This document shows positions 47,136 to 62,419 of a stretch of 64,000 bases of DNA, in pieces. The translations under genes were made by a program, and so were the position numbers. The stretch is taken from assembly GCA_902762795.1 (NCBI GenBank), contig CACWPM010000026.1:1-64000 (forward strand). Direction: 5' to 3'. The DNA is from Fibrobacter succinogenes. Its GTDB lineage: Bacteria; Fibrobacterota; Fibrobacteria; Fibrobacterales; Fibrobacteraceae. The stretch's first letter is position 1. Each line of letters begins with the position of its first letter. Below the pieces are notes generated by a model. The model searched no databases, was not told where the DNA came from, and worked only from the letters and a program-made list of their open reading frames with translations.

Positions 47136-48965
47136 ATGTGCGGAATCATTGGATATAACGGAAAAAGTGAAGCAATACCAGTCCTCGTCGAAGGTCTAAA
47201 AAAAATGGAATACCGAGGCTACGACAGCTCGGGTGTTGCCGTTATCGACCATGACAAAATAAATGTTGTACGTGCATCCGGTAAAATCAAGGCGCTGGAA
47301 GACAAATTAAAAGGGACCCCGCTCAAAGGTTCAGTCGGCATAGCGCACACACGCTGGGCAACACACGGCGCCCCAACCGAAATAAACGCCCATCCACATA
47401 CAAGCTATGATGGAAAAATTTCAATTGTCCACAATGGCATCATCGAAAACTACGCAAGCCTCAAGGCTAAGCTCATTGCCGAAGGTATAGAATTCAAATC
47501 CGAAACCGATACCGAAGTCGTAGCGCACCTCATCGCCCGCTATTACAACGGCGATCTGAAATCCGCCGTTCTCAAGACGCTCAAGCAAATCGAAGGAACT
47601 TTCGGTCTTGGCGTCATTTGCAGTGAAGAGCCAAACGTCCTGATTGGAGCCCGGCGCGGAAGCCCGCTTATTTTGGGAATTGGCAACGAAGGCGATTTTT
47701 ATCTCGCAAGCGATGTCTCCGCCATCATCAACCACACGCAGAAGGTCGTTTATCTGGACGACAACGACGTTGTCCAAATCAAGGACGGCGGTTATTCCAT
47801 CGTAAACATGAGCAGCCACGAAGTGCAACGTGAAGTCCAGGACGTAGAATTCGATGCAGACGCCGTGGCCAAGGGCGGTTTTCCGCACTTTATGCTCAAG
47901 GAAATTTTCGAGCAGCCCGAAGTGCTCCGCAACACCATGCGTGGCCGTCTGCTCATCTCCGAAGGGAACGCGAAACTCGCCGGCCTCGACACGAACATCA
48001 AGGAACTCCGCAGCATCAACCGCATCATCATCACCGCATGCGGAACAAGCTACTATGCCGGCATGGTAGGCGAATACATGATCGAGGACTTGGCCGGCGT
48101 TCCAGTCGAAGTTGAATACGCATCCGAGTTCCGCTACAGGAACCCGATCATCATGCCGGGAACACTCGTAATCGCCATCAGCCAATCCGGAGAAACCGCA
48201 GATACGCTCGCCGCCCTCAAGGAAGCACAACAGAAGGGCGCAACCGTTCTCGCCATTTGTAACGGAGTCGGCTCGTCCATTGCACGAACAAGTGACGGTG
48301 GAGTTTATCTGCACGCAGGCCCGGAAATCGGCGTGGCTAGCACCAAGGCATTCACAAGCCAGGTCACCGTACTCGCCATGATCGCACTCTTGCTCGGCCG
48401 CCAACGCAGACTCAGCTTTGAAACCGGAGCCGATATCGTAAAGGACCTTCTGGATCTTCCGAATCTCGTTTCTGAAACGCTCAAGCTTTCAGACGGCATC
48501 GCCGAAATCGCAAAGACACTGAACAAGGCAAACAACTTTTTGTACCTCGGCCGCCACTTCTGCTACCCGGTCGCCATGGAAGGCGCCTTGAAACTCAAGG
48601 AAATCAGCTACATCCACGCCGAAGGCTATCCCGCTGCAGAAATGAAGCACGGCCCGATCGCCCTTATCGACGAAAACATGCCGGTCGTGGTCATCGCCCC
48701 GAAAGACGCCCTGTTCGACAAGATTATCAGCAACATCCGCGAAATCAAGGCCCGAGGCGGTAAAGTCATCGCCGTCACGACGGAAGATTGCCACCCGCTC
48801 GATGAAATCGCCGACCACATCATCACGGTCCCGAAGACTCGCCCGATGCTCATGCCTATTCTCGCCTGCATTCCGCTCCAGCTGCTCGCCTACCACATCG
48901 CCGTGTTGCGCGGAAACGACGTGGACCAGCCGAGAAACCTGGCGAAGAGCGTGACGGTGGAGTAA
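47136..48965 (+). CDS. glmS: Glutamine-fructose-6-phosphate aminotransferase (isomerizing)
   Basis: 609 residues. The N-terminal glutaminase begins with the catalytic Cys2 after Met (MCGIIGYNG) and has KMEYRGYDSSGVAVI, THTRWATHG-like AHTRWATHGAPTE and HNGIIENY. The two SIS domains carry ITACGTSYYAGMVGEYMIE, AISQSGETADTLAAL, STKAFTSQ and AEGYPAAEMKHGPIALI; the protein ends DQPRNLAKSVTVE as usual. It makes glucosamine-6-phosphate from fructose-6-phosphate and glutamine for peptidoglycan and LPS. AGGA lies before the ATG. No glmS ribozyme is visible upstream. It is the last core gene before the island. Confidence 0.98.
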   Translation: MCGIIGYNGKSEAIPVLVEGLKKMEYRGYDSSGVAVIDHDKINVVRASGKIKALEDKLKGTPLKGSVGIAHTRWATHGAPTEINAHPHTSYDGKISIVHNGIIENYASLKAKLIAEGIEFKSETDTEVVAHLIARYYNGDLKSAVLKTLKQIEGTFGLGVICSEEPNVLIGARRGSPLILGIGNEGDFYLASDVSAIINHTQKVVYLDDNDVVQIKDGGYSIVNMSSHEVQREVQDVEFDADAVAKGGFPHFMLKEIFEQPEVLRNTMRGRLLISEGNAKLAGLDTNIKELRSINRIIITACGTSYYAGMVGEYMIEDLAGVPVEVEYASEFRYRNPIIMPGTLVIAISQSGETADTLAALKEAQQKGATVLAICNGVGSSIARTSDGGVYLHAGPEIGVASTKAFTSQVTVLAMIALLLGRQRRLSFETGADIVKDLLDLPNLVSETLKLSDGIAEIAKTLNKANNFLYLGRHFCYPVAMEGALKLKEISYIHAEGYPAAEMKHGPIALIDENMPVVVIAPKDALFDKIISNIREIKARGGKVIAVTTEDCHPLDEIADHIITVPKTRPMLMPILACIPLQLLAYHIAVLRGNDVDQPRNLAKSVTVE

Positions 48966-48994
48966 TAGGTCTTAGGGTTTTGCCACAGTTGGCG

Positions 48995-49015
48995 GAACTT
49001 AGAACTTAGAGCTTA
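48995..49015. repeat. Period-7 tandem repeat (GAACTTA type, three units)
   Basis: GAACTTA, GAACTTA, GAGCTTA, then GAAAGCAAGC; the same unit as at 18293. Confidence 0.85.
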
Positions 49016-49021
49016 GAAAGC

Positions 49022-49048
49022 AAGCCCCTCCCGACGGGAGGGGTTTTT
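49022..49048 (+). terminator. Terminator of glmS
   Basis: CCCCTCCC (49025-49032), GAC, GGGAGGGG (49036-49043), then TTTTT. Confidence 0.95.
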
Positions 49049-49173
49049 GGGCACATACAAATTATCAGTCATAACCAACCTTTTGTGCCATAAAAATATA
49101 ATAAGGGAGGATTGGCAGTCAAGAGGGGGTAATTTCGGGAAAAACAGACTTTTCCCCGAACCTCAGAAAGCAC

Positions 49174-49250
49174 ATTTAGAGAGTTATACCGCAAAAAAGT
49201 GCTTATAATTCTCTAAATCTCATATTTTTAAGGACATTTAGAGGATTATA
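49174..49250. repeat. Left inverted-repeat element (arms with TTTAGAG)
   Basis: ATTTAGAGAGTTATA (49174-49188), TATAATTCTCTAAAT (49204-49218) and ATTTAGAGGATTATA (49236-49250): the middle arm can pair with either neighbour. The 17-base loop between the last two (CTCATATTTTTAAGGAC) resembles that of the right element at 62163-62274, whose arms are different. Confidence 0.7.
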
Positions 49251-49396
49251 GAGAGGTTTTTGTCAGATAGCGATTTTTTCGAGGGAAATCCGGTAGTGTA
49301 AAAGAATCCGTTTATGATCGATTCTAGGAGGGACCCCTATACAACCTTCAGCTTATAGCTTACGGGGGTATGATTCCTAATACGAAAGAAACTTTT

Positions 49397-52300
49397 TTAC
49401 ATCTTTTCAAATTCAACGCTAAGCAATGGAACCCAGATAGCCTGACCAAATTCATCTTCCCATTTACAAACTTGGATTAATTTAGCTGTTTTCGGCTTAT
49501 AGAAATTTTTCTGGAGATTCCTGAGATAATCTTTTTCAAATTTATTAGAAAATTTGGTAACGTACCGCCCATTAAAGTACGTGTTGTAGCATTGAAATTC
49601 TTGATTAAATTTAATCTCAATTACAGTTCCCAATGGAATGGATGCAAATTTCTCTTGTAAATATCGTGTCCGACTTTTATTCTTTTCATTTACAAGCATA
49701 TATTTGAAAACCAAATCATCTAAGCCGGTTTCAACGTGTACTATCTTAGGTACACTATATTCTTTAAGTCTGCCCATATTTTTAAAATTCTTAATCCAAG
49801 AACTCGGAAGATTCGCCTCAGTTCCTAATACTGTAAGGGTTTTCTTGGCACGCGTTGCAGCAACATAGAGTAATCTGAATTGTTCCTGAGTTTCAGGAAT
49901 CCATTCACCAAGATTTAATATAACGTGATCCCATTCAAGTCCTTTTGAACTATGCATTGTGCCAACATTAACCTGCAAATTTCCTTTTTTATTTAGGTCA
50001 GCATAAGAGACTTCGTTTAGGTATTGTTCAAAATCACTTAAAACAACTTCGTCTTCACCATCTATAAAGTCGTTGATTACAGCATCTAACAATTCAAAGG
50101 AACTTTCGCCTTCATAGTCTTTCTTATACTTTTCTGCAATTTGTTTGAACAGCTCTATAGTCCAAGATCTCTTTGCAATATCTTTATCCGCTTCTACAAT
50201 TGTTTTGAAACCAACAATTTCACGAACTGATTCCACAGGACATTTTTCTAGATCCTGGCTTTTTATGACACGACAATCTACTCCTAATTCTTCTAATTTT
50301 GCTGCCGCCAAAAACACTTCTGAATTTTCTGGACTTAGAATGCAAGCGGAACCATTATCTAATTTACATTTCTCAACCAAAATTTCAGCAGCGGCAAACG
50401 CACCTCGCGTTCTATCGTATTCTTCAAAGAATTCAAGTTTTCCAAGTTCAGGATTAACAGCAACTTGTTTCTTGCCATCTTTAACTCGATAATTTAGACA
50501 GCTCAATATTTCTTCATTTGCTCGAACAAGATTTACCGCAGAACGATAATTATTCGTTAAATAGAATTCTTTCGTATTGGAAAATTCCGATGAAAATTTT
50601 CTAAAAAATTCAGAGGAACTTCCTCGAAATTCAAAAATACTTTGGTCATCATCCCCAACAACTATCAATCTCGGAGGTTTATCTCCATACCTATAGAGGG
50701 CTTTTAACATTTTGTATTCCGAACTAGAAAGGTCTTGAAATTCATCAACAAGAATAACGCCTAGTGAACCAATTCCAACATCTTCGCCTGATTCAACGAC
50801 CTCTGCGGCTTTATTAATAATTTCTTCGCCTTTTTGCGCATTGCCCGTCTTCTTAAAATCCTTCTTAGAGCCCTGAATTCCGAGAATTGAAAAAGCTAAG
50901 GCATGGAAAGTTGTGATAGTAACACCATGGGCCAACCCCTTTGCCAAATCATTTAATCGCTTGCGAAGTTCTCGACAAGCTGAACGTGTAAAAGTCAACA
51001 TCAACAAAGAATTGGGTTGAATCTCTTCGAGCCACAACAAAGACGCGGCCTTATGAACAAGCATGTGCGTCTTGCCAGACCCTGGTCCAGCGCCAACTAA
51101 AATATGTCTCGCATTACTTTTGATAATGGCCTTCTGTTCTTTATTAACCGCGTTTATACGTTCACGCAAATTTATGGAAACTGCACCCTTTTCATCGGGA
51201 GACATCATGTATTTTTGACGAAATTGGTTAATATTCAACGCAAAATAGTCATTCAGCAATTCTTGTGCGGCATCTTTATTATTAAGCATCATTTCGGCAT
51301 ACCTGCCGACAATATGAATCGCTTCAGCCTTGTTTTCATAAAAGTCGTGGAGTTTCTGAAAATCTTGTTCGCTAAATGGTTTTATCCTATTTTCAGGACT
51401 TATATCCAAAACAAGCCCGGTATAGAATACCATCAATCCATTTTCTAGACAAATAGCTCCAATCAAATGCAAGAAGAGTAAAGCATATTCAAATTGCGCT
51501 TGCCTTGCAAGGTCTTCAATGTCGTCTTCCCCATAGATTCTCAAGATGAGATTGTCTATAGAGAACCAAACAGTATCATTAAGAGTATCATCTTTCTTTT
51601 TTCCCTGCTCTTTTTGTATAACAAGCAGAGTATCGATAATCTTTTCAAAACATTCCCAGTTATCAACAAGATTCTTACGGACAATATCAAGTTCTTTTAG
51701 AAATTCAATTTGGTATCGCTGATGACCAGCCTCTATTAAATGAATTTCTGCAATACTTTCATGAGCCCAATAACGAAGAATACCTCGCAAAATTTGCAGA
51801 CATTTCCTTGTTTCAGTTCCAGATTCAGTTTCACCTCGAGCAGCGTTAACTTTCGTCAAATTCAGCAAAAACGGCTCATTGATACAATGTCCCTCACAAC
51901 TTTTTAACAGAATTTCTTGCAAACCTTTCGCCCGTTCCAGCATTCGTTTGCAATTAAAGGTCCCCAAGCGTTGAATCTTTGCACTCCAATCATTTCGTTG
52001 GTCTAAAAGACGTTTGCTACGAAGCAGCCGTAAAGCCTCATTTGCATCTTTTCGTTCAATGCCCAAATTTACTGTGATATCATCAAGAGTACATTCAGGA
52101 TTCTTTGTCCATCTTTTAGTGATAATATGTCGCATGATTCTAAATGCGATGTTTTCAATTGTATTTAACTTATCAATGTTTGGACTATCTAAAATGTACC
52201 GAATCTGCGAAACAGTTTCTATGGCAATAGAGGAACCAAATACTTGTGTTTGATTACGTTTTCTTTTCAAAAAGCCCTGATCTTCCAAAAGCATAATGGC

Positions 52301-54334
52301 GTGTTTAACTTTTGTTTCTAGCGCTCCTATATTTTCATTTTGCTCAGTCCAACCGCATTTATCTGCAATTTCCAAAGCAGACATCACAAGCCGTTCACGT
52401 TTTTCGCTTTGCTTTATTAACACACGCCAAATGTCACCAATTTCTTTTTCAGATAATTTTGATTGCTGTAGAAGTTGAAAATTGGTATCCAAATCTTTTG
52501 AATTGTACAAAGCAACACAGAACGCCTGCATATCCGGTTTTCTACCCGCACGACCAGCCTCTTGCACATAGTTTTCTAATGTACTTGAGATTTCGTAATG
52601 AGCAACTAATTTAACATTGTCTTTGTCAACCCCCATTCCAAATGCTGTAGTAGCAACAATTGTATCAATATTTCCGTCAGCTTTTTGAAATTCTTCCTGA
52701 ACATCTATTTTGATATCTGCATCCATTTGACCATTATAGCAACCACTTTTGAAACCATACTCTTTTAAACTTTCTGCTAATTTTTCGGTTGTTTTAACTG
52801 TAGTTGCATAAACTATTTTAGGCCCATCATACAACTTCAACAAATTAACAAGCTCTTTTCCACGTTCATGTTTATCTCTAGATGCAGGTATAACAGAATA
52901 TTCCAAATTTTTTCTTGTTGCAGAGCTAACAATCTTTACCAAATCAAGATTCATTCTTTTCTTAAAATATCCACAAATATCATCAACGACATCCTGTTTC
53001 GCTGTTGCCGTAAAACAACTGATTGGAATAGATGATTCTAAGCGCTTTTCTTCTTCGAGATCTTTGATAAAATCGGCAAGATAAAGATAATCGACTCGGA
53101 AATCTTGTCCCCAAGCGCTAAAGCAATGCGCTTCATCTATAACAAATCGATTTATACGGCGTTGTTTTAGCAATTTAAATATCGTATTGGAACGAAGAGC
53201 TTCGGGCGAAATATAAAGAATGTCTTTTTCATTATCAAGAATAGCCCTAATTGTATTTTTTCGCTCTAATGGAGAAATTTGTGAGTATATATACGCAGCA
53301 CGATCTATCCCAAAACGCTTTGTCAATACGTCCACTTGGTCTTTCATCAAGGCAACAATCGGAGATATTACAACAGTCAAGGCACCTATCTGACTCCCCG
53401 CAATCAAAGCAGGCAACTGGAAAGTCATTGACTTTCCACCGCCAGTCGGGAATACTGCTAAAAGGGACTTGCCTCGCATTGCAGTTTCAACAACTCGCTG
53501 TTGTAGAGGAATTTTCTCGTCTTTTTCGAAAGAACGGAAAGCATCAAATCCAAACCATTTCTTTAATTGTTTTATTGAACTTAGCTGTTCGGAGCAATAT
53601 GGACATTGAGAATTGCCACAAGGAACAAGGCGACGACGATGCAAAATACTTTCAAGATGTGGGTACTGGTAGCGAACCCAATGGGGAACAAAATCACTAG
53701 GTCCTTCTTCATGAAATAATGTTAGAAGAAAACACCATTCGACACGATAGACCGCCCACTCGTTTTCAAAATCTTGATGCAAGCAAATCGATTTCTCATA
53801 ATGCGCAGTAAACCAACGTTGTATTTCAGACAGATTGGAGCGCAATTTACTTTGTTCAGGAACTTCTACAAGATTAAAGAACGGAGCAAAACCAGGTTCA
53901 TTCTTTAAAAACTGAAATAAGAGATAACGAAGTTGCCAAGGATAGCTACCCCATTTTTCCACGCAATCTTGTAAAAGTCGTTTGCAAAGCTCTGCATCTT
54001 TTAAAGGATCTGATGGTTCATCTTCGTTTTTCAGATATTCCTTACGCAACTTGTGATACGGTTTGCACGGGAACAATAACGAAGAAAGCATCAAGGTATC
54101 CAACGCCTTAACATTGGGGAAATCTATAGAAAAGTACTGTCTAAGAATCGGAGCATCATGACGGAGAACATTGTGTCCCACAATAAATTTCGCTTTTTGA
54201 GCCGCTAGTTCTAATTTCGCTGGATTTTTTTCACGAGCACGTTCTTCACCTAGAATATAACCGTATTCCCGAACCGCTTCTGTTCCAGGATTATATTCCA
54301 AATCAAAAAATAAAAAGTCGTGCAAATTATCCAT
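49397..54334 (-). CDS. Exonuclease - RecQ helicase - UvrD helicase fusion
   Basis: 1645 residues, a single chain with two full helicase engines. Residues 5-130: DEDD-type 3'-5' exonuclease-like (FFDLEYNPG with D11/E13, GHNVLRHD, DAELCKRLL). Residues 239-247: CGNSQCPYC, a possible metal site. Residues 275-600: RecQ helicase with PTGGGKS (296-302), the DEAH box in VIDEAHCFSAWGQDFR (399 on), TATAKQDV and QEAGRAGR (592-599). Residues 600-1050: RecQ C-terminal-like and unassigned helical part. Residues 1055-1540: UvrD/PcrA type with GAGPGSGKTH (1082-1091), VDEFQD (1196-1201), GDDDQSIFEFRG, MHSSKGLEWD and VAATRAKK. Last gene of the operon, 64 bases after the previous one. Likely DNA unwinding and trimming. 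Confidence 0.88.
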   Translation of the reverse strand: MDNLHDFLFFDLEYNPGTEAVREYGYILGEERAREKNPAKLELAAQKAKFIVGHNVLRHDAPILRQYFSIDFPNVKALDTLMLSSLLFPCKPYHKLRKEYLKNEDEPSDPLKDAELCKRLLQDCVEKWGSYPWQLRYLLFQFLKNEPGFAPFFNLVEVPEQSKLRSNLSEIQRWFTAHYEKSICLHQDFENEWAVYRVEWCFLLTLFHEEGPSDFVPHWVRYQYPHLESILHRRRLVPCGNSQCPYCSEQLSSIKQLKKWFGFDAFRSFEKDEKIPLQQRVVETAMRGKSLLAVFPTGGGKSMTFQLPALIAGSQIGALTVVISPIVALMKDQVDVLTKRFGIDRAAYIYSQISPLERKNTIRAILDNEKDILYISPEALRSNTIFKLLKQRRINRFVIDEAHCFSAWGQDFRVDYLYLADFIKDLEEEKRLESSIPISCFTATAKQDVVDDICGYFKKRMNLDLVKIVSSATRKNLEYSVIPASRDKHERGKELVNLLKLYDGPKIVYATTVKTTEKLAESLKEYGFKSGCYNGQMDADIKIDVQEEFQKADGNIDTIVATTAFGMGVDKDNVKLVAHYEISSTLENYVQEAGRAGRKPDMQAFCVALYNSKDLDTNFQLLQQSKLSEKEIGDIWRVLIKQSEKRERLVMSALEIADKCGWTEQNENIGALETKVKHAIMLLEDQGFLKRKRNQTQVFGSSIAIETVSQIRYILDSPNIDKLNTIENIAFRIMRHIITKRWTKNPECTLDDITVNLGIERKDANEALRLLRSKRLLDQRNDWSAKIQRLGTFNCKRMLERAKGLQEILLKSCEGHCINEPFLLNLTKVNAARGETESGTETRKCLQILRGILRYWAHESIAEIHLIEAGHQRYQIEFLKELDIVRKNLVDNWECFEKIIDTLLVIQKEQGKKKDDTLNDTVWFSIDNLILRIYGEDDIEDLARQAQFEYALLFLHLIGAICLENGLMVFYTGLVLDISPENRIKPFSEQDFQKLHDFYENKAEAIHIVGRYAEMMLNNKDAAQELLNDYFALNINQFRQKYMMSPDEKGAVSINLRERINAVNKEQKAIIKSNARHILVGAGPGSGKTHMLVHKAASLLWLEEIQPNSLLMLTFTRSACRELRKRLNDLAKGLAHGVTITTFHALAFSILGIQGSKKDFKKTGNAQKGEEIINKAAEVVESGEDVGIGSLGVILVDEFQDLSSSEYKMLKALYRYGDKPPRLIVVGDDDQSIFEFRGSSSEFFRKFSSEFSNTKEFYLTNNYRSAVNLVRANEEILSCLNYRVKDGKKQVAVNPELGKLEFFEEYDRTRGAFAAAEILVEKCKLDNGSACILSPENSEVFLAAAKLEELGVDCRVIKSQDLEKCPVESVREIVGFKTIVEADKDIAKRSWTIELFKQIAEKYKKDYEGESSFELLDAVINDFIDGEDEVVLSDFEQYLNEVSYADLNKKGNLQVNVGTMHSSKGLEWDHVILNLGEWIPETQEQFRLLYVAATRAKKTLTVLGTEANLPSSWIKNFKNMGRLKEYSVPKIVHVETGLDDLVFKYMLVNEKNKSRTRYLQEKFASIPLGTVIEIKFNQEFQCYNTYFNGRYVTKFSNKFEKDYLRNLQKNFYKPKTAKLIQVCKWEDEFGQAIWVPLLSVEFEKM

Positions 54335-54398
54335 ACTCTACAAATATATAAGAAAAAATTTCAAAACAAGTCTCGCACGAAAAAACAATCCACTTCAA

Positions 54399-57300
54399 TC
54401 AGTTGCTAAACTCATTCCAAATGAACTTTTCCTTATATTCGCAAGCGGGATAATTAGAACATCCCACAAAATAATGCCCATTGTTGCCTTTTCGTTTTAT
54501 AAGAAAGCCCCCACAATTAGGACATATTTTAGGACTTGACAAAATAGTCACGTCTCTTTGCGCATACCGACACCGAGGAAAATTAGAACACCCCACAAAA
54601 GATTTTCCATCATGTTCAACTTTCAGCAAGTCCCCCGTTTTGCAAAGAGGACATTTCGTCAGTTTTCCGTTTGTTCTTCGTCCCGTTGATTTGAAGAATA
54701 CAGATGTAGATTCTGAAAATTCCTTGAAAAATGGAGATGGGTTCTTGTTATCCACAAGGACATAGGTTCTATTTTTTGTTCGAGTAATAGCAACATAAAA
54801 TAAACGACGTTCTTCCGCAAATCTGTAATCTTCCGCATTTGTAAGAACAAAATTCAAAACAGGATCATCAATCATCTGATTCGGAAAACCAAGTTTATCA
54901 TTTCTAAAATTCAGAAGAATAACATTATCAGCTTCCAATCCCTTGGATTTGTGAACGGAAAGGAATTGTATTGACAACATCGGATTTTGAATGTACTCTA
55001 GCGCATCAGCACCATTCTTCCGAATCTCTCGGAATAAGCCGGTATCTTTTGCAATTTCTATATCGTAATTTGTTCTCCCTAAAAGTAAAATGGACGAATT
55101 CGTTCCATAATCCAAAGCAATTTTATTGATTATCGCTTGCAAAGCGTTTCTCGGATTGTCATCGAAGCCCCAAAAAACAAGAGGATAATCTAGCTTTTTA
55201 TCGGAGCGTAAACATTTCTTGAGCTGAAGTGGATTTTGCAAAACAAAATGCGAAGCTTCATCGATTAACTTTTGCGAATTACGATAAGTTTTCTCAATTT
55301 TCAATATTTTCGTTTTTCCAAAATACTTTGCAATATCGGTAAATAACGAAATATCGCTACCAGCAAACCTATATATGGATTGCCAGTCATCCCCTACACA
55401 GAATAACTTCGCTTTTGTTTTATCGACAATAGCCTTTAACAGATTAAATCTGGCCTTCGAGATATCCTGATATTCATCAACAATCACATACTTATACAAA
55501 GGAATTTCGCAACCACCATTAACATTCTCAGTCGCATTGTTTATCATATCCGAAAAATCGATTGAATCATTGGCAATTAAGTGTTTTTGATAAGTATCTA
55601 ATATTACTCTTATTATATTCAAAAAGGTATTGTTTCTTCTTTGCAAGAAACTTTTATCTTCTAACGAAAGCCAATCTTTCCAATCATCGATCGTTTCTAC
55701 TGTATAATTATTAGACTTAAAAAGTACGATAAAAGTTCCGCATAACTTCACAAATTCAGAGAAATACTTATTCGTCTTGGTTGCGTAAACAGTATTGAAA
55801 ATATCCATGAAATTTCTTGATTTCAGAACAACCCCATTTTGTTTTAGAAGTTCTTCAAGTTTTTGCAGGAGAACACCTTCTGAATTGTAGTATGAATAAG
55901 TTTCAATCAACTTGGTATTATTCTGCTTATGAAATTCTCTTTTCCATTCAATTCCATCTAAATATTTTTGAGCTTCAACAAGAGAAAGCCACGGAACCGT
56001 ATAGTCTCTTGTTATTCCAAAATGTTCTAAATAAATATCATAATCTTTCAAATAAAAATCCGGCCTATATGCTTTTCGCAAGGGATCCTGACTTTCGAAA
56101 GGATAGATTTTTTCATATTCGTAATTTACGCCATTTAAAAAAAGAAAATTTGCAATCTGAACTTCTTGAAGACTTTTTACTTTTTCATTTTTAAGCGTTG
56201 TATGATCCTGCGCTTTCTTTATTTTTTCTTCATGTATATATTTTTCTTGATCATATTTTGATTTAAGAGTTTCTAAATCTACGCTTTTTTCAGCCTCATA
56301 CATTTCACCCAACGAAGAACATTCTTCCATATTTTGCGGGATATCGATATAATATGCAAAGTATTCAATTATATTTTTTACTAAATCAGGATAATTTACA
56401 AGTTCCTTTTCAAAAAAAACATGTATAAATTTATTAAAGAGAGATTCATCAAGAACGTCAGGCCTTTTCCCATCAGCACTTTTAATTATATCAAGACCCA
56501 ATTTATGAAAAGTTGTTGATTTAACAGGGATTCCCAACTTTCCTTGAATTCTATCGGTCATTTCTTGAGCAGATTTTTTCGTAAACGAAATAAGTAATAT
56601 TTCTTCTGGACTTATATTCTTCGCATCACATAGATATTTGACTTTGCCTGCAATCGTCAGCGTTTTTCCACTACCCGCCCCTGCCAAAACAAGAATTCTA
56701 TCTTCATCGGTTATGACAGCTTCTCTTTGTTGCATATCTAAGGACTTTCCATCTATGTTGGAAAACAGATAATCATATTTTTGCGATTCCTGCACAATAA
56801 ACGATTTATTCGCTTTTTCTAAATAATTAAAAAGATCCTCATAGATTATTTCAAAATGACTTATTTCCCCATACTCTTCATCATTCACATTCAAATTACA
56901 AATAGCAACATCTTGAGACAATTTTTTCCATTTCTGATAAAATATTTTTCCATCAGAGTCTGTAACATAACGACTAGTCAAGAAATCAAGTTCATTAAAG
57001 AAAATATTCACAAATTGCAAAAGCAACTTGAGTTGTTCCTTACGCCTAAACTCTGCATTTGATTCTAAAACGAGTCTTGGAAAACTTTTATACTTTCTTT
57101 TAAACTCCTCTAATCTTACAAAGGTCTTTACTTTTGAAGACTTCCGACTGCACTCTTGCAATTCAAAATACAATGTTTGATATTTCTTAATAAAAGCATC
57201 TCTTTCTGCATCTTGAATATAGTGTTTAAACAATCCATCATATTCAATTGAAAACGAATTAACTTCTATTAAAAACTCTTTGCATTTGATTTCCACATTC

Positions 57301-57623
57301 GATTCTAAAACGAGCCTTGGGAAATCTTTGTACTTTTTCTTAAAATCTTCTAACTTTACAAAATCATCAACTTTTGATGGAATACCACTATACCTTTGCA
57401 ACTCATAATACAACACTTTATACTTAGAAACAAAGGCGTCCCTTTCTGCATCCTGAATATAATGATTAAAAATCCCGTCAAAGTCAACGAAAAAAGAATC
57501 ACATACTTCTATGAAGCTTTCTACTTTTTGTTCAAATTCTTTAGCAAGTTGTCTACGACGTGCTACATAAAAAAGAGCAATTGAGGTGAATAATACAATT
57601 ATTAGCACAAACATGTTTAGCAA
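54399..57623 (-). CDS. UvrD/HelD-type helicase with N-terminal repeats, nuclease-like insert and zinc ribbons
   Basis: 1074 residues, starting with TTG at 57623 (AAGGGG eight bases upstream) or ATG at 57614. A membrane helix (about 4-20) is followed by two near-identical 75-residue repeats (37-111, 117-191; both contain HYIQDAERDAF and FPRLVLESN) and a third, weaker one (about 201-272). The helicase has GAGSGKT (315-321), a VDEYQD box, GDDWQSIYRFAGSD, VHKSKGLEAD and VAITRTKN. Between the first motifs lies a PD-(D/E)XK-like stretch (QEVQIANFLF, RPDFYLKDYDIYLEHFG near 487-536), as in HelD relatives. The end has two topoisomerase-type zinc ribbons (CPLCKTG..., CPNCGG...). The HNH gene ends 5 bases upstream. 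Confidence 0.87.
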   Translation of the reverse strand: MLNMFVLIIVLFTSIALFYVARRRQLAKEFEQKVESFIEVCDSFFVDFDGIFNHYIQDAERDAFVSKYKVLYYELQRYSGIPSKVDDFVKLEDFKKKYKDFPRLVLESNVEIKCKEFLIEVNSFSIEYDGLFKHYIQDAERDAFIKKYQTLYFELQECSRKSSKVKTFVRLEEFKRKYKSFPRLVLESNAEFRRKEQLKLLLQFVNIFFNELDFLTSRYVTDSDGKIFYQKWKKLSQDVAICNLNVNDEEYGEISHFEIIYEDLFNYLEKANKSFIVQESQKYDYLFSNIDGKSLDMQQREAVITDEDRILVLAGAGSGKTLTIAGKVKYLCDAKNISPEEILLISFTKKSAQEMTDRIQGKLGIPVKSTTFHKLGLDIIKSADGKRPDVLDESLFNKFIHVFFEKELVNYPDLVKNIIEYFAYYIDIPQNMEECSSLGEMYEAEKSVDLETLKSKYDQEKYIHEEKIKKAQDHTTLKNEKVKSLQEVQIANFLFLNGVNYEYEKIYPFESQDPLRKAYRPDFYLKDYDIYLEHFGITRDYTVPWLSLVEAQKYLDGIEWKREFHKQNNTKLIETYSYYNSEGVLLQKLEELLKQNGVVLKSRNFMDIFNTVYATKTNKYFSEFVKLCGTFIVLFKSNNYTVETIDDWKDWLSLEDKSFLQRRNNTFLNIIRVILDTYQKHLIANDSIDFSDMINNATENVNGGCEIPLYKYVIVDEYQDISKARFNLLKAIVDKTKAKLFCVGDDWQSIYRFAGSDISLFTDIAKYFGKTKILKIEKTYRNSQKLIDEASHFVLQNPLQLKKCLRSDKKLDYPLVFWGFDDNPRNALQAIINKIALDYGTNSSILLLGRTNYDIEIAKDTGLFREIRKNGADALEYIQNPMLSIQFLSVHKSKGLEADNVILLNFRNDKLGFPNQMIDDPVLNFVLTNAEDYRFAEERRLFYVAITRTKNRTYVLVDNKNPSPFFKEFSESTSVFFKSTGRRTNGKLTKCPLCKTGDLLKVEHDGKSFVGCSNFPRCRYAQRDVTILSSPKICPNCGGFLIKRKGNNGHYFVGCSNYPACEYKEKFIWNEFSN

Positions 57624-57628
57624 ACGCC

Positions 57629-58810
57629 TTACCCCTTAAAATTCCAAATTTCGTACCCTTGCCGTCTTGCAGAATCATATACGGGTTGCATGTTCTTTTT
57701 CAGAATATTGATAAATTGTTCTTCACTATTTCCCGCTCTAAAAAGCTCCGTTTCAGCCCATATCGAATGTAGATTATCGCGATAGCATTTTTCAAAACGG
57801 CCGCGGATAGAATCGTCATTCCACATCAATCGATACATTTCATATTGGTTCAAAGCAAATCGCTTAAAAAAAGTCCAATGAGGCAAACGATTTCCCTTAG
57901 AGGAATTGAGAGAGGAATTCATCGGAGATAGATTCCACAGTTCATCATTCATCACAAATGACCATGGAATAAAATGGTCAATGTCGTAATCATTTTCAAT
58001 AGGCTTATTTGTATAGATGTCAAGAATCGTTTCGCGTTGCAAGACTATTTCCCACAATTTGCGAACTTGTTCAAGTTTTCGCACACTCGCATCCATAGGA
58101 GAAAGTTTATATACAATTCCCGGAACTTCGGGATTGTTGACTTGCAACCATTTTGATTTTTCATGCTGAATCCATCCAAGAATCGCAACCGAATTGTCTT
58201 GAATATATTGTTTCCATATCGGATTAAAAACAACTTTACGATTTAGCTGCGGATTTTCATCAAAAATGTATGGAAGCAAAATACGTTGATTGACCTTCTT
58301 TGTGTAATCAATAATGGCTTGCAAACTATTCCAGTTAACTTTTTCCCCACGTCCCTGTTCGTAACGATTATAAAATCCTGCCAACGCTCGATAAGGAACA
58401 TATTTTGTCAATGCGATTTTATACTTCTTGATATCTCCGTTAAATTCTTTAATTGCGTTCTTGATTTCTATCTTGGATGCATTGGATTGCAAGCCACTCT
58501 TTTCGGCTAAATCAGTAACGGCCAATTCTAACGCATCGCGAAATTCGCCTTTCAGCATGCCGCTCAAATGAATGTGGTATTCACGGACAGTGAACCATGC
58601 ATTCGCAATCATTTCGTCAATAATCGCATCAAAACTTGCAATATTCACATCCTCATCAATCAGTTTGACAATCGCTTCAAGCCAGTAGAACTTGTAACAA
58701 CACGTCGGATCTTTCATCATGAGCGAAAAGCACTCGACATCGAGTTGATTGCAATAGGGCGAATTAATATCTAAAGCTAAGCTTTGCGGGAAAGGATTAT
58801 ATTCATCCAT
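57629..58810 (-). CDS. HNH endonuclease
   Basis: 393 residues. The HNH motif lies at 270-310: IYTNKPIENDYDIDHFIPWSF (DH 278-279), LWNLSPMNSSLNSSKGNRLP with the central Asn293 and later N/K. The first 265 residues are mostly helical and of unknown kind (VPYRALAGFYNRYEQGRGEKVNWNSL is notable). Enzymes with this HNH build cut DNA near bound metal and are common in restriction and phage-defence operons. It starts inside the methyltransferase gene (34 bases shared) with AGGAG before the ATG, and its stop overlaps the ribosome site of the helicase gene downstream. The tight packing shows the four genes act together. Confidence 0.85.
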   Translation of the reverse strand: MDEYNPFPQSLALDINSPYCNQLDVECFSLMMKDPTCCYKFYWLEAIVKLIDEDVNIASFDAIIDEMIANAWFTVREYHIHLSGMLKGEFRDALELAVTDLAEKSGLQSNASKIEIKNAIKEFNGDIKKYKIALTKYVPYRALAGFYNRYEQGRGEKVNWNSLQAIIDYTKKVNQRILLPYIFDENPQLNRKVVFNPIWKQYIQDNSVAILGWIQHEKSKWLQVNNPEVPGIVYKLSPMDASVRKLEQVRKLWEIVLQRETILDIYTNKPIENDYDIDHFIPWSFVMNDELWNLSPMNSSLNSSKGNRLPHWTFFKRFALNQYEMYRLMWNDDSIRGRFEKCYRDNLHSIWAETELFRAGNSEEQFINILKKNMQPVYDSARRQGYEIWNFKG

Positions 58811-59367
58811 TTTTCTTCGCTCCTATTCGGTCTTACATCCTTAGAAATCCAGTATTCATCGCATTTCAATTCTGGAATATTCAAAAGAAATCCGGTAAAT
58901 GTTTGCTCAGTAAAATCAGAAAAAAAGCGGTCGTTTCTTTTGCCAGAAAAAGTTCCATACTTGAACGAAGTATAAATTATTCCAGTAGGTTTTAGAGCCA
59001 CCGACATTTTTTTCATAACTGAAACAAGTTCGTCATTCGGTAAATGAAGAATAGAAGCGCACGCCCAAATTCCATCATATTTTGCAACAGCATCTAATTG
59101 TTGAAAAAACATTTGCCTAACGGCAATTCCCGTATAGAGACTCGCAATCTTGCATAATTCTTCTGAACCGTCAACTGCATCTACATCAAAGCCTTTTTCA
59201 AGGAACGCTTTCGTATCGCGACCTGCACCGCACCCGAAATCCAATATTTTTGCATGTTGCGGCAAATAATCGAGGAACCGTTCCTGGGTAGAAGAAAAAT
59301 CTACACCAATAGTACTGCTGGAGTATTCCTTCGCATTTTTATTATAATAATCAATAGTTGTTGTCAT
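58777..59367 (-). CDS. Class I SAM-dependent methyltransferase
   Basis: 196 residues. The Rossmann fold is marked by motif I ILDFGCGAGRDTKAFLEKG (about 40-60), DAVDGSEELCKIAS as motif II, YDGIWACASILHLP as motif IV, and GIIYTSFKYG. The start (IDYYNKNAKEYSSST) is of the Methyltransf_11/25 type. It lacks a DNA-methylase DPPY/NPPY motif, so DNA base methylation is not indicated; a small molecule, nucleotide or protein is a likelier target. It is the first gene of the four-gene operon. Confidence 0.87.
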   Translation of the reverse strand: MTTTIDYYNKNAKEYSSSTIGVDFSSTQERFLDYLPQHAKILDFGCGAGRDTKAFLEKGFDVDAVDGSEELCKIASLYTGIAVRQMFFQQLDAVAKYDGIWACASILHLPNDELVSVMKKMSVALKPTGIIYTSFKYGTFSGKRNDRFFSDFTEQTFTGFLLNIPELKCDEYWISKDVRPNRSEEKWMNIILSRKA

Positions 59368-59596
59368 GAGTATTTTAAGCTTTATACTATGCTTAGAAAT
59401 TTATATAAAAATGCGACAGATAAAGCAAAAAGACCTCAAAAATAACGTCTAAAGCAAATAAAGGAAGAAAACTCAACAAACCGCGACATATTTGCAAAAT
59501 AAGCCCTCTGGATGAGGACGGCAAAGGCGCCGATGAAGTCAAACACCCTCACTTGCCTCCCCTCGCCGTATTTTGTATATTCCCCAATAGTAAAGC
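59368..59596. other. Divergent gap before the ORF6N gene
   Basis: About 230 bases between the methyltransferase start (minus) and the ORF6N leader (plus). TATAAA (59380-59375, minus) lies just ahead of the methyltransferase; no other feature is clear. Confidence 0.4.
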
Positions 59597-59662
59597 TATA
59601 GTGGCAGGACAAACCTGCGACAAGCCGTATTTCTTATATCTAAAGGAATACGGCTTTTTTTG
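59597..59662 (+). promoter_or_regulatory. Leader of the ORF6N gene with hairpin and intrinsic terminator
   Basis: A -10-like TATAGT (59597-59602) is followed at once by a hairpin GCAGG-ACAAA-CCTGC (59604-59618) and a strong terminator: AAGCCGTATT (59622-59631) / AATACGGCTT (59647-59656) with TTTTTTT to 59661. The ribosome site AAGGAG (59667-59672) and the ATG (59678) come straight after. So transcription must pass a terminator to reach the gene: attenuation, or a separate small RNA of about 55 nt. Confidence 0.6.
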
Positions 59663-59677
59663 TTATAAGGAGAAAAA

Positions 59678-60667
59678 ATGAACAAAAAGACCGACAATAC
59701 AGATGTCATCGTACAGAATCCAATCGTCAATTCGTCCGTCGAAAAGATGATTCAAGTCATCCGAGACAAGCAGGTTCTGCTAGATCGCGACTTGGCGACG
59801 CTTTATGGAGTAGAAACGAAGCGTATCAATGAGCAAGTAAAACGCAATAAAGAGCGATTTCCTGAGGATTTTTGCTTTCTGCTGACTATGGAAGAAACGA
59901 AAATTCTAAGGTCGCAAAATGCGACCTTAGAGAAGGAATCTGCTAATCTGAAAGGAAAACATTCAAAATACCGGTCTTTGGCGTTCACGGAACAAGGTAT
60001 CGCGATGCTCTCGTCTGTCCTGAAAAGTGAAACGGCCATCAGAGTGAACATTGCCATCATGCGTGCTTTTGTCGCAGCTCGGCAAATCCTGATGCAAAAC
60101 GGCGGTTTGGTCAATCGCCTGTCCAACGTGGAGTCCAAAATGCTCGAGCAGGACGCGCGTTTGCAGGAACACGACCATAAATTCGACACGATTTTCGAGG
60201 CGATGGACCGCGGCGAGCTGCAATCGAAGGGGCTGTATTACAACAACCAGATTTTCGACGCCTATGTGTTCGTATGCGGGCTAATCAGGCAGGCGAAAAG
60301 GCGGATTGTCCTTGTGGACCGCTACGTGGACGAGAAGGTACTTGCGATGATGCTCAAGCGCAGCAAAGGCGTATCGGTGACAATCTACACCTACGATAAG
60401 AGCAAAGTTTTCGAAGTGGATTTGGCAACATACAACGCACAGTATGCGGACAGTCCCATTGAAATTTTACCATGTTATGGAATGCACGATCGATTCCTAT
60501 TCATAGACAATATAGCTTACCATTTTGGCGCATCCCTGAAAGACCTGGGAACAAGCACATTTTTCTTCAGCAAAGAAGATTTCACACTAGACGAAGTGCT
60601 AAAGAAATCAGAGGAAAAGCGACAATTACAAGAGTTATTAGCAACCGAACCGTCAAGGAATACTTGA
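59678..60667 (+). CDS. ORF6N-domain protein with a PLD-like C-terminal domain
   Basis: 329 residues. Residues 15-110 form the ORF6N DNA-binding domain (MIQVIRDKQVLLDRDLATLYGVETKRINEQVKRNKERFPEDFCFLLT, YRSLAFTEQGIAMLSSVL), a phage-derived domain frequent in Bacteroidota and their relatives. A short coiled coil follows (145-180). The C-terminal 140 residues (NQIFDAYVFVCGLIRQAKRRIVLVDRYVD, MHDRFLFIDNIAYHFGASLKDLG) look like a single PLD-family unit, with HDRFLFID in place of the HKD motif (HxK to HxR). AAGGAG precedes the ATG. It lies in the island between the operon and the ATPase. Confidence 0.82.
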   Translation: MNKKTDNTDVIVQNPIVNSSVEKMIQVIRDKQVLLDRDLATLYGVETKRINEQVKRNKERFPEDFCFLLTMEETKILRSQNATLEKESANLKGKHSKYRSLAFTEQGIAMLSSVLKSETAIRVNIAIMRAFVAARQILMQNGGLVNRLSNVESKMLEQDARLQEHDHKFDTIFEAMDRGELQSKGLYYNNQIFDAYVFVCGLIRQAKRRIVLVDRYVDEKVLAMMLKRSKGVSVTIYTYDKSKVFEVDLATYNAQYADSPIEILPCYGMHDRFLFIDNIAYHFGASLKDLGTSTFFFSKEDFTLDEVLKKSEEKRQLQELLATEPSRNT

Positions 60668-60680
60668 CAGGGGAAAACCT

Positions 60681-62117
60681 TTATATCGTATTTTCCCTGA
60701 ACAAATCCTCCATCGTGATTTCTTGTTGCGCGACACTGCTGTTGGCACCTTCGGCCACGCCATAGGTAGTTACCATTGTGGGAACGATGGCGTACTTGGT
60801 TTTCGTTTTGGCACGGAATAGTTCGGCCCTATCGCGAATGTAATCGGCATATTCCGCCGTCATTTGATACTTGCCTATAGCGAATTTAATTTCGCACAAG
60901 TTTATTGTTCTGTCAGCCCTTGAAATAACCAAGTCAATTTGGGCTCCTTTTTCAGAATCGCTTTTCGGCACATATCTCCACGCAGACACATCCGTCGCAA
61001 CGCCAGCAATACCCAGTTTCTGCTTTATGGCATCGACATGCGTCATGCAGACAAGTTCAAAAGTCTGTCCAAGCCAAGTTTCTACGCTATGCGAGTTGAA
61101 ATGTTTACTCCACCATTGTTCATCAAGAGAGTTGTTCGCCTGCACATACTTAAAATAAAAGAGAGTATAAAAATCAGACAACCGATAGATGGCGTCCTTG
61201 ACCTTGTTACCAAGCTGGCTATATCGCAAAAGAAAATCGCACCGTTCAAGGTTCTTCAGCACGGCAGTCAGTGTTTTGCCATCAAAATCGACCTTTTTGT
61301 CTATTTGGGAACGCGTCAAGCCTTCCTTATGGTTTGCTAACAGTTGAGCCACTTGTACATAGTAATCTGCATGGGCGAACAAAGCGTTGTACAGTTCGTC
61401 AAATTCAATTTTCAGTAGTGCGTTTTTACGGAAGAAAACACGGTCGATGTTTTGGACAAGACTCAAGCGGGTATCCAGCAAGCTCCAGTAAAACGGGACT
61501 CCGCCCAAAATCATGTACGCCTGGAGAATCTGGTACCTGTCCCATGCGCATTTCCTAGCACGGAGATATTGTTCCGATTCATAAAGTGTAAAAGGATTCA
61601 GGTAGATGCTGTTCGTAATGCGGCAATGCAACCCACCTTGGTTTTCGACGAGTTTGTCGATCATCCGGCTGGTTGCGCTACCCGTTGCAATAAACAATAT
61701 ATCTTTACGGCGTGCGGCCCAGCCATTCCAAAAGTTCTCAAACGCCTCAACAAAATCCGATTTTGGTGTGTCGATCCAGGGCATTTCGTCAAAAAAGATG
61801 ACCTTTTTATGGTCATTGGATTGCGACTCAATCCACTCAGCCAAAGAATCAAATGCATTGGACCAATCGGCGAACTCTGGCAATTTTGGCAGATGCGCGT
61901 AATGTTTGATAGCCTTTGCGAAATTACGCAACTGCTTTTTCACAGGTAGATTGTGACCACCGACAAAAGAAAAGTCATATTGACGATTGAAGAACTCTTC
62001 CACAAGGAAGGTTTTGCCGACACGGCGACGGCCATATACGACAACAAACTCTGACTGGTCACTTTTTAGGCATCGGTCGAGTTCCCCTATTTCACGATTT
62101 CGTCCAATTAGGTTCAT
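60681..62117 (-). CDS. AAA ATPase of the archaeal ATPase / DUF234 type
   Basis: 478 residues from the ATG at 62117, which is preceded by GGGGGA; the frame is open to 62174 without support. The N-terminal ATPase has MNLIGRNREIGELDR, Walker A VYGRRRVGKTFLVEEFF and Walker B KVIFFDEMPWID, then a sensor region IATGSATSRMI. A winged-helix part (about 270-340, GLTRSQIDKKVDFDGKTLTAVLKNLERCDFL) precedes the DUF234-like C-terminal domain with a nuclease-like EIKFAIGKY near 430 (INLCEIKFA). Such ATPases are numerous in this lineage and in archaea, and their function is unknown. It is convergent with the ORF6N gene, 13 bases apart. Confidence 0.85.
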   Translation of the reverse strand: MNLIGRNREIGELDRCLKSDQSEFVVVYGRRRVGKTFLVEEFFNRQYDFSFVGGHNLPVKKQLRNFAKAIKHYAHLPKLPEFADWSNAFDSLAEWIESQSNDHKKVIFFDEMPWIDTPKSDFVEAFENFWNGWAARRKDILFIATGSATSRMIDKLVENQGGLHCRITNSIYLNPFTLYESEQYLRARKCAWDRYQILQAYMILGGVPFYWSLLDTRLSLVQNIDRVFFRKNALLKIEFDELYNALFAHADYYVQVAQLLANHKEGLTRSQIDKKVDFDGKTLTAVLKNLERCDFLLRYSQLGNKVKDAIYRLSDFYTLFYFKYVQANNSLDEQWWSKHFNSHSVETWLGQTFELVCMTHVDAIKQKLGIAGVATDVSAWRYVPKSDSEKGAQIDLVISRADRTINLCEIKFAIGKYQMTAEYADYIRDRAELFRAKTKTKYAIVPTMVTTYGVAEGANSSVAQQEITMEDLFRENTI

Positions 62118-62162
62118 CAGAATCCCCCATATTGTTTTTCTATATATAAAAAAAACAATCGG

Positions 62163-62274
62163 ATATTTTCCCAAAAGTTATAATTTTTACAGGATTTTGG
62201 GAAATTATCTATCAAAAATAGACGATATTTCCCCAAATCTCATAATTTTTGTAACATTTTGGGAAATTATATAT
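62163..62274. repeat. Right inverted-repeat element, two tandem units (arms TTTCCCAAA / TTTTGGGAAA)
   Basis: Two 50-base units (62163-62212, 62225-62274; spacing 62) start 46 bases upstream of the ATPase start. Each has arms like CCCAAA and TTTGGG around a 16-18-base loop (CTCATAATTTTTGTAAC in unit 2). The loop and its placement match the left element at 49204-49250 although the arms differ. Beyond it, 62275-62419 shows nothing further. Confidence 0.75.
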
Positions 62275-62419
62275 TTTTGAGAAATTCCTCAAAATTCAAG
62301 CAGCCTTAAATCGTTCCTGCTATTTATTAGACATCTTAATGGACTCTTTATTGGACATTCCTACAATGGCAAGTGGCAATTCGTCTAACAACCCCATCTA
62401 ATTTCTATATTATCGTTCA

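Follow-up and report, generated by a model that had tools for sequence, protein, structure and literature searches.

Do four genes that lie packed together and look like a defence operon also form one system? The question is raised by a stretch of Fibrobacter succinogenes DNA (64,000 nt, hereafter the window; genomes and loci carry the labels G### and L###) in which four minus-strand genes follow one another between glmS and scpA. In reading direction, we call them MT, a class I S-adenosylmethionine (SAM)-dependent methyltransferase of 196 aa (58777..59367); HNH, an HNH_4 endonuclease of 393 aa (57629..58810); HelD, a HelD-like UvrD helicase of 1074 aa with a TTG start (54399..57623; Pfam, NCBIfam); and RecQ–UvrD, an exonuclease–RecQ–UvrD fusion of 1645 aa (49397..54334; Pfam). 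A first-pass annotation, made from the letters alone, read the four genes as a candidate undescribed anti-phage operon. The packing that it described is borne out by the open reading frame (ORF) list, in which MT and HNH overlap by 34 nt (58777..58810) and gaps of 5 and 64 nt separate the genes that follow. Examining 167 genomes of the phylum, we find that the MT–HNH pair, not the four-gene set, is the recurring unit.

The MT–HNH pair recurs in Fibrobacterota

The helicases were at first expected to be the defining part of the locus; the phylum searches and the individual loci showed the opposite. We searched 167 Fibrobacterota genomes, the window's own (G000) among them, at E-value thresholds of ≤1e-5 for HNH, ≤1e-20 for MT, and ≤1e-100 for HelD and RecQ–UvrD. 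Of the 10 genomes with an HNH match, nine have it at full length, while the tenth has a partial one (29% identity). MT had matches in exactly the nine genomes with a full-length HNH. The two genes were adjacent in all eight carriers besides the window's genome, and they overlapped by 28–40 nt in each of these eight loci. Gene order is conserved elsewhere for this pair, unlike for the four-gene set, whose order is found in four of the nine carriers, all of one genus, with a contig end truncating the set in one.

The helicase genes come and go. HelD occurs in 18 of the 167 genomes and RecQ–UvrD in 32, and genomes without MT–HNH account for 12 and 26 of these cases, respectively. HelD stands directly behind HNH in six carriers (gap 3–5 nt), and RecQ–UvrD stands behind HelD in four (the window, G128, G114 and, up to the contig end, G082). 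Elsewhere, different genes follow HNH. In G134, these are a DdmD homologue (PADLOC E 4e-46) and a DdmE homologue (L020 5807–12769), the latter matching PDB 9iw3 over a C-terminal stretch (E 9e-13) with no PADLOC match. DdmD of the G134 type is present in six of the 167 genomes, and G134 is the only MT–HNH carrier among them. In G093, a PLD (phospholipase D)–helicase with DUF3427 follows 150 nt after HNH, together with a NUDIX gene, and in G139 there is a short ORF that is HerA-like by reading.

Could the four genes still act as one system in this lineage, with MT–HNH sensing and nicking DNA, and HelD and the exonuclease–RecQ–UvrD protein unwinding and degrading it? The same order in the window, G128, G114 and, to the contig end, G082 speaks for this idea. 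Carriers are also enriched for HelD (six of nine against 12 of 158; Fisher p 4.6e-5) and for RecQ–UvrD (six of nine against 26 of 158; p 0.0018), both values being uncorrected for relatedness. However, RecQ–UvrD lies 64 nt behind HelD; six carriers possess it, but just four have it adjacent, and in two it is at a different place in the genome. It also occupies glmS–scpA in strains where MT, HNH and HelD are missing from that site, and its mutual association with HelD is weak (p 0.05). In 12 extra RecQ–UvrD loci, no MT, HNH or HelD stood beside it. Because HelD and RecQ–UvrD mostly occur in genomes without MT–HNH, and each can also occupy that site unaccompanied by the rest of the set, the four genes are not one fixed system as the first-pass annotation had proposed. 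We consider joint action of all four in this lineage improbable; RecQ–UvrD probably stands alone as a helicase–nuclease next to the other genes.

Genes behind HNH are exchanged as cassettes

The four genes lie in a 13.4-kb insert (48966..62419, no strand) between glmS (47136–48965) and scpA (beginning at 62420), delimited against the empty site of three close relatives, where 113 bp (G105), 139 bp (G134) or 194 bp (G060) lie between glmS and scpA. The DNA here is AT-rich, as noticed at first pass: GC per kb is 0.305–0.397 over 49–60 kb, with higher values on both sides (0.45–0.56 in 43–49 kb and 0.44–0.54 in 60–64 kb). The insert also holds, outside the module, a plus-strand gene for an ORF6N-domain protein (59678..60667; PADLOC candidate PDC-S05) and a minus-strand ATPase gene (60681..62174; PADLOC candidate PDC-S27).

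We fetched 12 neighbouring glmS regions, of which L189, L190 and L193 show no scpA. Of the four genes, only HelD occupies the glmS–scpA site in G064 and, with one more small ORF, in G106. Only RecQ–UvrD is there in G126, where it is accompanied by an ORF6N gene, and in G131, whose contig ends before scpA. G102 carries a distant RecQ–UvrD and the window's ATPase gene at 95% identity. In Fibrobacter, this site is thus a hotspot of exchange whose contents vary among helicase, ORF6N and ATPase genes (window 48966–62419, L088, L089, L100, L101, L106, L188, L191 and L192).

A second site, beside xpt-like and feoB-like genes (named by reading), holds MT–HNH with HelD or DdmD; an xpt-like gene also precedes RecQ–UvrD in G067. 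Comparing G134 with G126 at the second site, we find 96–100% DNA identity over the flank, MT and the 5′ part of HNH, and divergence in mid-HNH. From 3 nt after the HNH stop, G134 has the DdmD and DdmE homologues, whereas G126 has HelD. With MT and 5′ HNH shared and the following genes different, the genes behind HNH are thus exchanged as cassettes.

Between L020 and L021, DNA identity falls sharply in mid-HNH and then recovers, as expected of within-gene recombination, and the window compared with L017 shows a sharp mid-HNH drop and recovery of the same kind.

MT relatives beyond the phylum change their partner

Using the MT alignment as query, we scanned one genome each for 84,980 species and took the best 80 loci, a census selected by similarity to MT and consisting mostly of Lachnospiraceae. 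A partner was called by tblastn when it lay on the same strand within 4.5 kb. A PLD–helicase was nearby in 42 loci, HNH in 25 and NUDIX in 13. As the single partner, PLD–helicase was found in 34 loci, HNH in 14 and NUDIX in two. The combinations were HNH with PLD–helicase and NUDIX (six loci), HNH with NUDIX (four), HNH with PLD–helicase (one) and PLD–helicase with NUDIX (one). These PLD–helicases are SauUSI-like, both PLD and DUF3427 being found in partner genes. On a Polaromonas plasmid, MT, PLD and helicase domains stand in one coding sequence, adjoined by a transposase gene.

Direct neighbours are tightly joined, as far as start codons chosen mechanically can tell. MT runs directly into HNH in 20 loci, 19 of them overlapping and 12 by exactly 40 nt, and directly into a PLD–helicase in 31 loci, 28 of them overlapping and 17 by exactly 31 nt. 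The HNH protein after MT is of the window type in Fibrobacterota and Firmicutes, and of a second, distant type in Acinetobacter and Pseudoalteromonas. A quick MT tree of 89 rows, without L145, L147 and L169 (no MT ORF called), requires HNH and PLD to replace one another at least 13 times over the 70 rows that have a partner; the slot behind MT exchanges its occupant. L167, in which MT and HNH share one ORF, was set aside as evidence of fusion; both halves are truncated at the join.

The window's helicases are scarce in this census. The sole locus with HelD or RecQ–UvrD above the thresholds is L108, apparently the same contig as L018 (both 58,181 bp). Below the thresholds, we noticed a 1095-aa ORF 31% similar to RecQ–UvrD (L111) and a 254-aa ORF with a local HelD match (L125).

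MT–HNH pairs have Wadjet (L116; L019 by reading) and Druantia (L132) as defence neighbours, and AbiL-like or candidate ATPases (L176, L168) as further ones; pairs with the second HNH type have type I-Fv Cas and BREX genes among their neighbours. Scanning 10 neighbour proteins, we found PADLOC families matched at E ≤1e-10 by seven. In L167, a neighbour of 982 aa that reads as McrBC-like was dropped, as PADLOC gave no match for it. A location in a defence island or exchange hotspot, noticed at first pass, is seen for the window at glmS–scpA, and some related pairs have defence neighbours; other pairs sit among ordinary genes.

Such stand-alone pairs amid housekeeping genes, and the gene overlap, would also be expected of a toxin–antitoxin-like addiction pair, in which a toxic HNH is neutralised by MT and the two ride defence islands without defending. 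However, the MT family is often linked to restriction-like PLD–helicase and NUDIX genes, and the pairs are linked to several defence systems. We find an addiction pair doubtful.

MT carries no DNA-methylase motif

We scanned the window proteins with PADLOC-DB 2.0.0, Pfam, NCBIfam and PHROG, the Pfam and PADLOC scans covering six proteins (the four-gene set, the ORF6N protein and the ATPase). MT has motif I DFGCGAGRD (residue 43), followed by WACASILHL (101) and SFKYG (134), and its Pfam assignment is Methyltransf_25. All its Pfam and NCBIfam matches are general, small-molecule or protein class I methyltransferase families, with no DNA-methylase family among them. The type II restriction–modification (R–M) motif ([DNS]PP[YFW] or PC) is absent from MT, no PP or PC dipeptide occurring in its 196 residues, in agreement with the first-pass annotation. 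The closest solved relative is 3e23 (RPA2492, uncharacterised; E 2.8e-38). One PHROG match is a tRNA methyltransferase (E 4e-8), and in PADLOC the protein matches a portion of the mad2 profile (E 6e-13) and, weakly, RT_UG35.

NUDIX–MT fusions were found in L138, L162 and L178 (the NUDIX part by tblastn and reading). By reading, MT is also fused to a macrodomain-like part (L124) and to a HAD phosphatase-like part (L119). The fusions to NUDIX, macrodomain and HAD parts hint at nucleotide-related chemistry. Scanning viral contigs with MT gave five loci, and MT was followed by an HNH gene only in L026, where it is of the second type. Another family member lies on a phage-like viral contig (L027 9818–10582); it has an N-terminal extension and, by eye, no HNH or PLD partner.

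HNH restriction enzymes exist, and MT–HNH might be read as an ordinary two-gene R–M system, with host DNA methylated by MT through an unrecognised mechanism and DNA lacking that methylation as the target of HNH. The tight pairing of MT with a nuclease, and the repeated exchange of that nuclease, agree with this. The lack of PP and PC in MT argues against it, as do the family matches, which are not DNA methylases except for the partial match to mad2 (of the MADS system). The alternative partner argues against it too: according to PMC3874153, the SauUSI family is known for cutting methylated DNA, and such an enzyme would be ill suited to a protective DNA methylase. We regard ordinary R–M as unlikely.

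The N-terminal domain of HNH weakly resembles a sulfur-binding domain

The HNH protein consists of an N-terminal helical, winged-helix-like domain (residues about 25–236; 58103..58738, minus strand), delimited in AlphaFold2 models, and a C-terminal Cas9-type HNH domain (residues about 244–386; 57653..58081, minus strand). The catalytic domain is present. It is recognised by Pfam (HNH_4, E 8.6e-11), has PADLOC matches to Cas9 only, aligns with Cas9-HNH structural rows and conserves the D-H…N…N residues (D278-H279…N293…N302). In the AlphaFold2 model of the full protein (mean pLDDT, the predicted local distance difference test, 85), the C-terminus resembles Cas9 HNH domains; the N-terminal domain modelled alone has a pLDDT of 88.

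Performing VIA-align with the isolated N-terminal domain, we obtained as the top row the Hga sulfur-binding domain (SBD) on phosphorothioated DNA (8h0l; Z 6.3, root-mean-square deviation 3.6, 122 of 152 residues), tied with ORC winged-helix domains (Z 6.2). No row reached Z ≥8, and the tool notes that such Z values are common for unrelated folds. Foldseek gave no match at E <0.001 for this domain (best 0.24, an unrelated protein), and sequence profiles linking it to SBD were not found, with no match to NF045808. A profile hit to 9lc0 (E 0.041) was not used. We consider an SBD-like reader because some HNH homologues are Dnd-linked and the SBD of ScoMcrA has a published ORC resemblance, its nearest structure being an ORC-type protein (PMC6224610). 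Distant HNH homologues (24.6–31.4% identical) lie, by annotation, within phosphorothioation clusters in five of 12 plasmid records, two of the 12 being without informative annotation. Three of the original 15 records were left out; these are Synechocystis plasmids whose match has coordinates identical or nearly identical to those in an examined record. Uncharacterised HNH proteins with a conserved W-aromatic-P motif were seen inside phosphorothioation clusters of cyanobacteria and Hymenobacter (L011, L013, L014, L204 and L205).

All 12 of the distant homologues, filed as not MT-linked, have W-aromatic-P at positions 72–74; one of them, L012, does carry an MT homologue (42%), on the opposite strand at a distance of about 1.2 kb. 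In the MT-linked rows, position 74 is T, S or M in 28 of 28 and never P, and it is Q in all four rows of the second MT-linked type. Near-copies (L016–L019, L021) are omitted from the alignment, as are L117, L144 and L167, whose rows are truncated or odd. Judged by motif order rather than structural superposition, position 74 would be the equivalent of the SBD pocket proline. Because this proline is replaced and DndC is absent from all nine MT–HNH carriers, we infer that what the MT-linked branch reads is not phosphorothioate.

Of 100 related genomes searched with NF045808, 18 have a match, in every case short of the cut-off. The window's own genome encodes, on another contig, a further HNH protein (G000:C16:20467–20817, L209) that matches only the HNH half of NF045808 (E 3.8e-18, below the cut-off). 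The HNH alignment found no relative in the viral-contig scan.

The helicase genes carry nuclease-like parts

Three helicase engines are indeed present, as the first-pass annotation counted: the UvrD core of HelD and, in the fusion, a RecQ core (residues 254–648; 52391..53575; PADLOC, NCBIfam) and a UvrD core (residues 1058–1510; 49805..51163; Pfam, NCBIfam), all on the minus strand, as are the parts described below. The defence-like composition that it saw is likewise supported, at a site that is an exchange hotspot with empty relatives.

In Pfam, HelD matches UvrD-helicase and two Zn_ribbon_Top1 stretches, which are topoisomerase-type C4 Zn-ribbons (residues 991–1066; 54426..54653); one N-terminal hydrophobic stretch spans residues 7–20. 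A domain inserted in HelD (residues about 395–645; 55689..56441), with RPDF at 520 and YLEHFG at 531, gave four PDB profile matches at E ≤1, all to endonuclease I entries (best E 0.023). These do no more than suggest a PD-(D/E)XK fold, which would add a nuclease-like part that was not on the earlier list.

The fusion matches DEAD, Helicase_C and UvrD-helicase in Pfam, and its RecQ and UvrD parts resemble DpdF, GajB, RTasHel and the like among the PADLOC matches listed. At its N-terminus, an alignment of 12 sequences shows the motifs of a DEDD-type 3′-5′ exonuclease-like region (within residues 1–240; 53615..54334), namely D11-x-E13, H54-N-x3-H59-D60 with N55 nearly invariant, and D113. The profile matches are weak (PHROG polymerase exonuclease subunit, E 4.8e-4) or non-significant (one PDB match, E 0.017).

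Discussion

We propose that this locus, in an exchange hotspot, is put together from separable defence-type cassettes around a core module, the two-gene, restriction-like MT–HNH pair. Taking the genomic and the biochemical parts jointly, we give this account an even chance. In the composite, HNH would be the DNA-cutting effector, and its N-terminal domain would read a feature or modification of foreign DNA. MT would not methylate DNA bases; together with NUDIX, where present, it may protect the cell or license the nuclease, and its substrate could be a nucleotide, a modified-base precursor, RNA or protein. Behind HNH in this genus, HelD would serve as an unwinding and degrading motor, in the place that DdmD takes in one relative (G134) and a PLD–helicase elsewhere.

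Several observations weigh against this account. The MT has no called partner in 18 of the 80 census loci, two of them at contig ends, so some MT proteins may act otherwise; by profile, one of the 16 off contig ends, L144, does have an HNH gene of the second type immediately behind MT. The MT tree has many weak forks, and its well-supported branches force only five to six changes per label. The census was itself picked by MT similarity, as the best 80 loci, and leans on Lachnospiraceae, in which several MT–HNH pairs sit among ordinary genes. Coupling of HelD to HNH was seen only in Fibrobacterota; above the thresholds used, HelD is near MT in one of the 80 census loci (L108). Finally, three of the 10 neighbour proteins scanned match no PADLOC family.

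A wider idea, possible though on balance not probable, is that MT marks an undescribed class of restriction-like immunity. An invariant non-DNA-base methyltransferase would be combined with a replaceable DNA-cutting effector. This effector would be either a SauUSI-like PLD–helicase or a Cas9-type HNH preceded by an SBD-like reader, and NUDIX, HelD or DdmDE could join it. The substrate of MT and NUDIX would be the nucleotide pool, or a modified nucleotide that arises during infection, and the self mark would be neither base methylation nor phosphorothioation.

If true, a widespread family annotated "class I SAM-dependent methyltransferase" marks restriction-like modules that PADLOC-DB 2.0.0 left unnamed in these scans, and the joint appearance of SauUSI-like enzymes, NUDIX genes and Cas9-type HNH proteins is explained. 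MT–HNH offers a simple two-gene target for asking what MT methylates. The window also teaches that neighbours in a hotspot need not form a four-gene system.

Comparison with known systems

No named PADLOC system is among the best matches listed for the window proteins (the best 25 for each of the two helicase proteins), as the first-pass annotation had anticipated. In partly narrow searches of the open-access literature, we found no paper describing the MT–HNH pair. Partial likenesses to known systems are, however, many.

The HelD protein shares its UvrD core with Gabija, helicase IV and PcrA–UvrD (GajB PDLC00117, E 5e-43); its helicase IV match in NCBIfam scores 344 bits, below the cut-off of 543. 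It differs in having the inserted nuclease-like domain and the Zn-ribbons. No OLD or TOPRIM Pfam domain is found in the six window proteins, and no GajA in the PADLOC lists of the four that are not helicases. The fusion resembles the RecQ family and WRN in that an exonuclease-like N-terminus precedes a RecQ core, but carries a further UvrD helicase. DdmD and DdmE homologues take the place of HelD behind MT–HNH in G134 and are absent from the window.

BREX genes follow one MT–HNH pair whose HNH is of the second type, which recalls the auxiliary HNH nucleases of BREX. A survey of BREX loci reports HNH nucleases, some of them stand-alone, beside BREX (PMC12839542); the passages on these nucleases mention no methyltransferase partner. 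The six window proteins include no BREX gene in the PADLOC and Pfam scans.

The phosphorothioate-dependent SBD–HNH enzymes ScoMcrA, SprMcrA and EcoWI join an N-terminal reader to a C-terminal HNH, as the window's HNH may do. The window's HNH differs from them: it has no NF045808 match, the Z of its SBD row is tied with ORC, proline 74 is replaced, and DndC is missing from nine of nine carriers.

The SauUSI-type type IV enzymes (PADLOC mREase_IV PDLC03658/03659) are found immediately behind members of the MT family at other loci, and a neighbourhood of SauUSI homologues and MutT (NUDIX) genes has been published before (PMC7641849). In the window, by contrast, the four proteins are without PLD or DUF3427, the nuclease is an HNH, and the helicases are separate genes. 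We have filed the locus under restriction-like defence, outside the named families.

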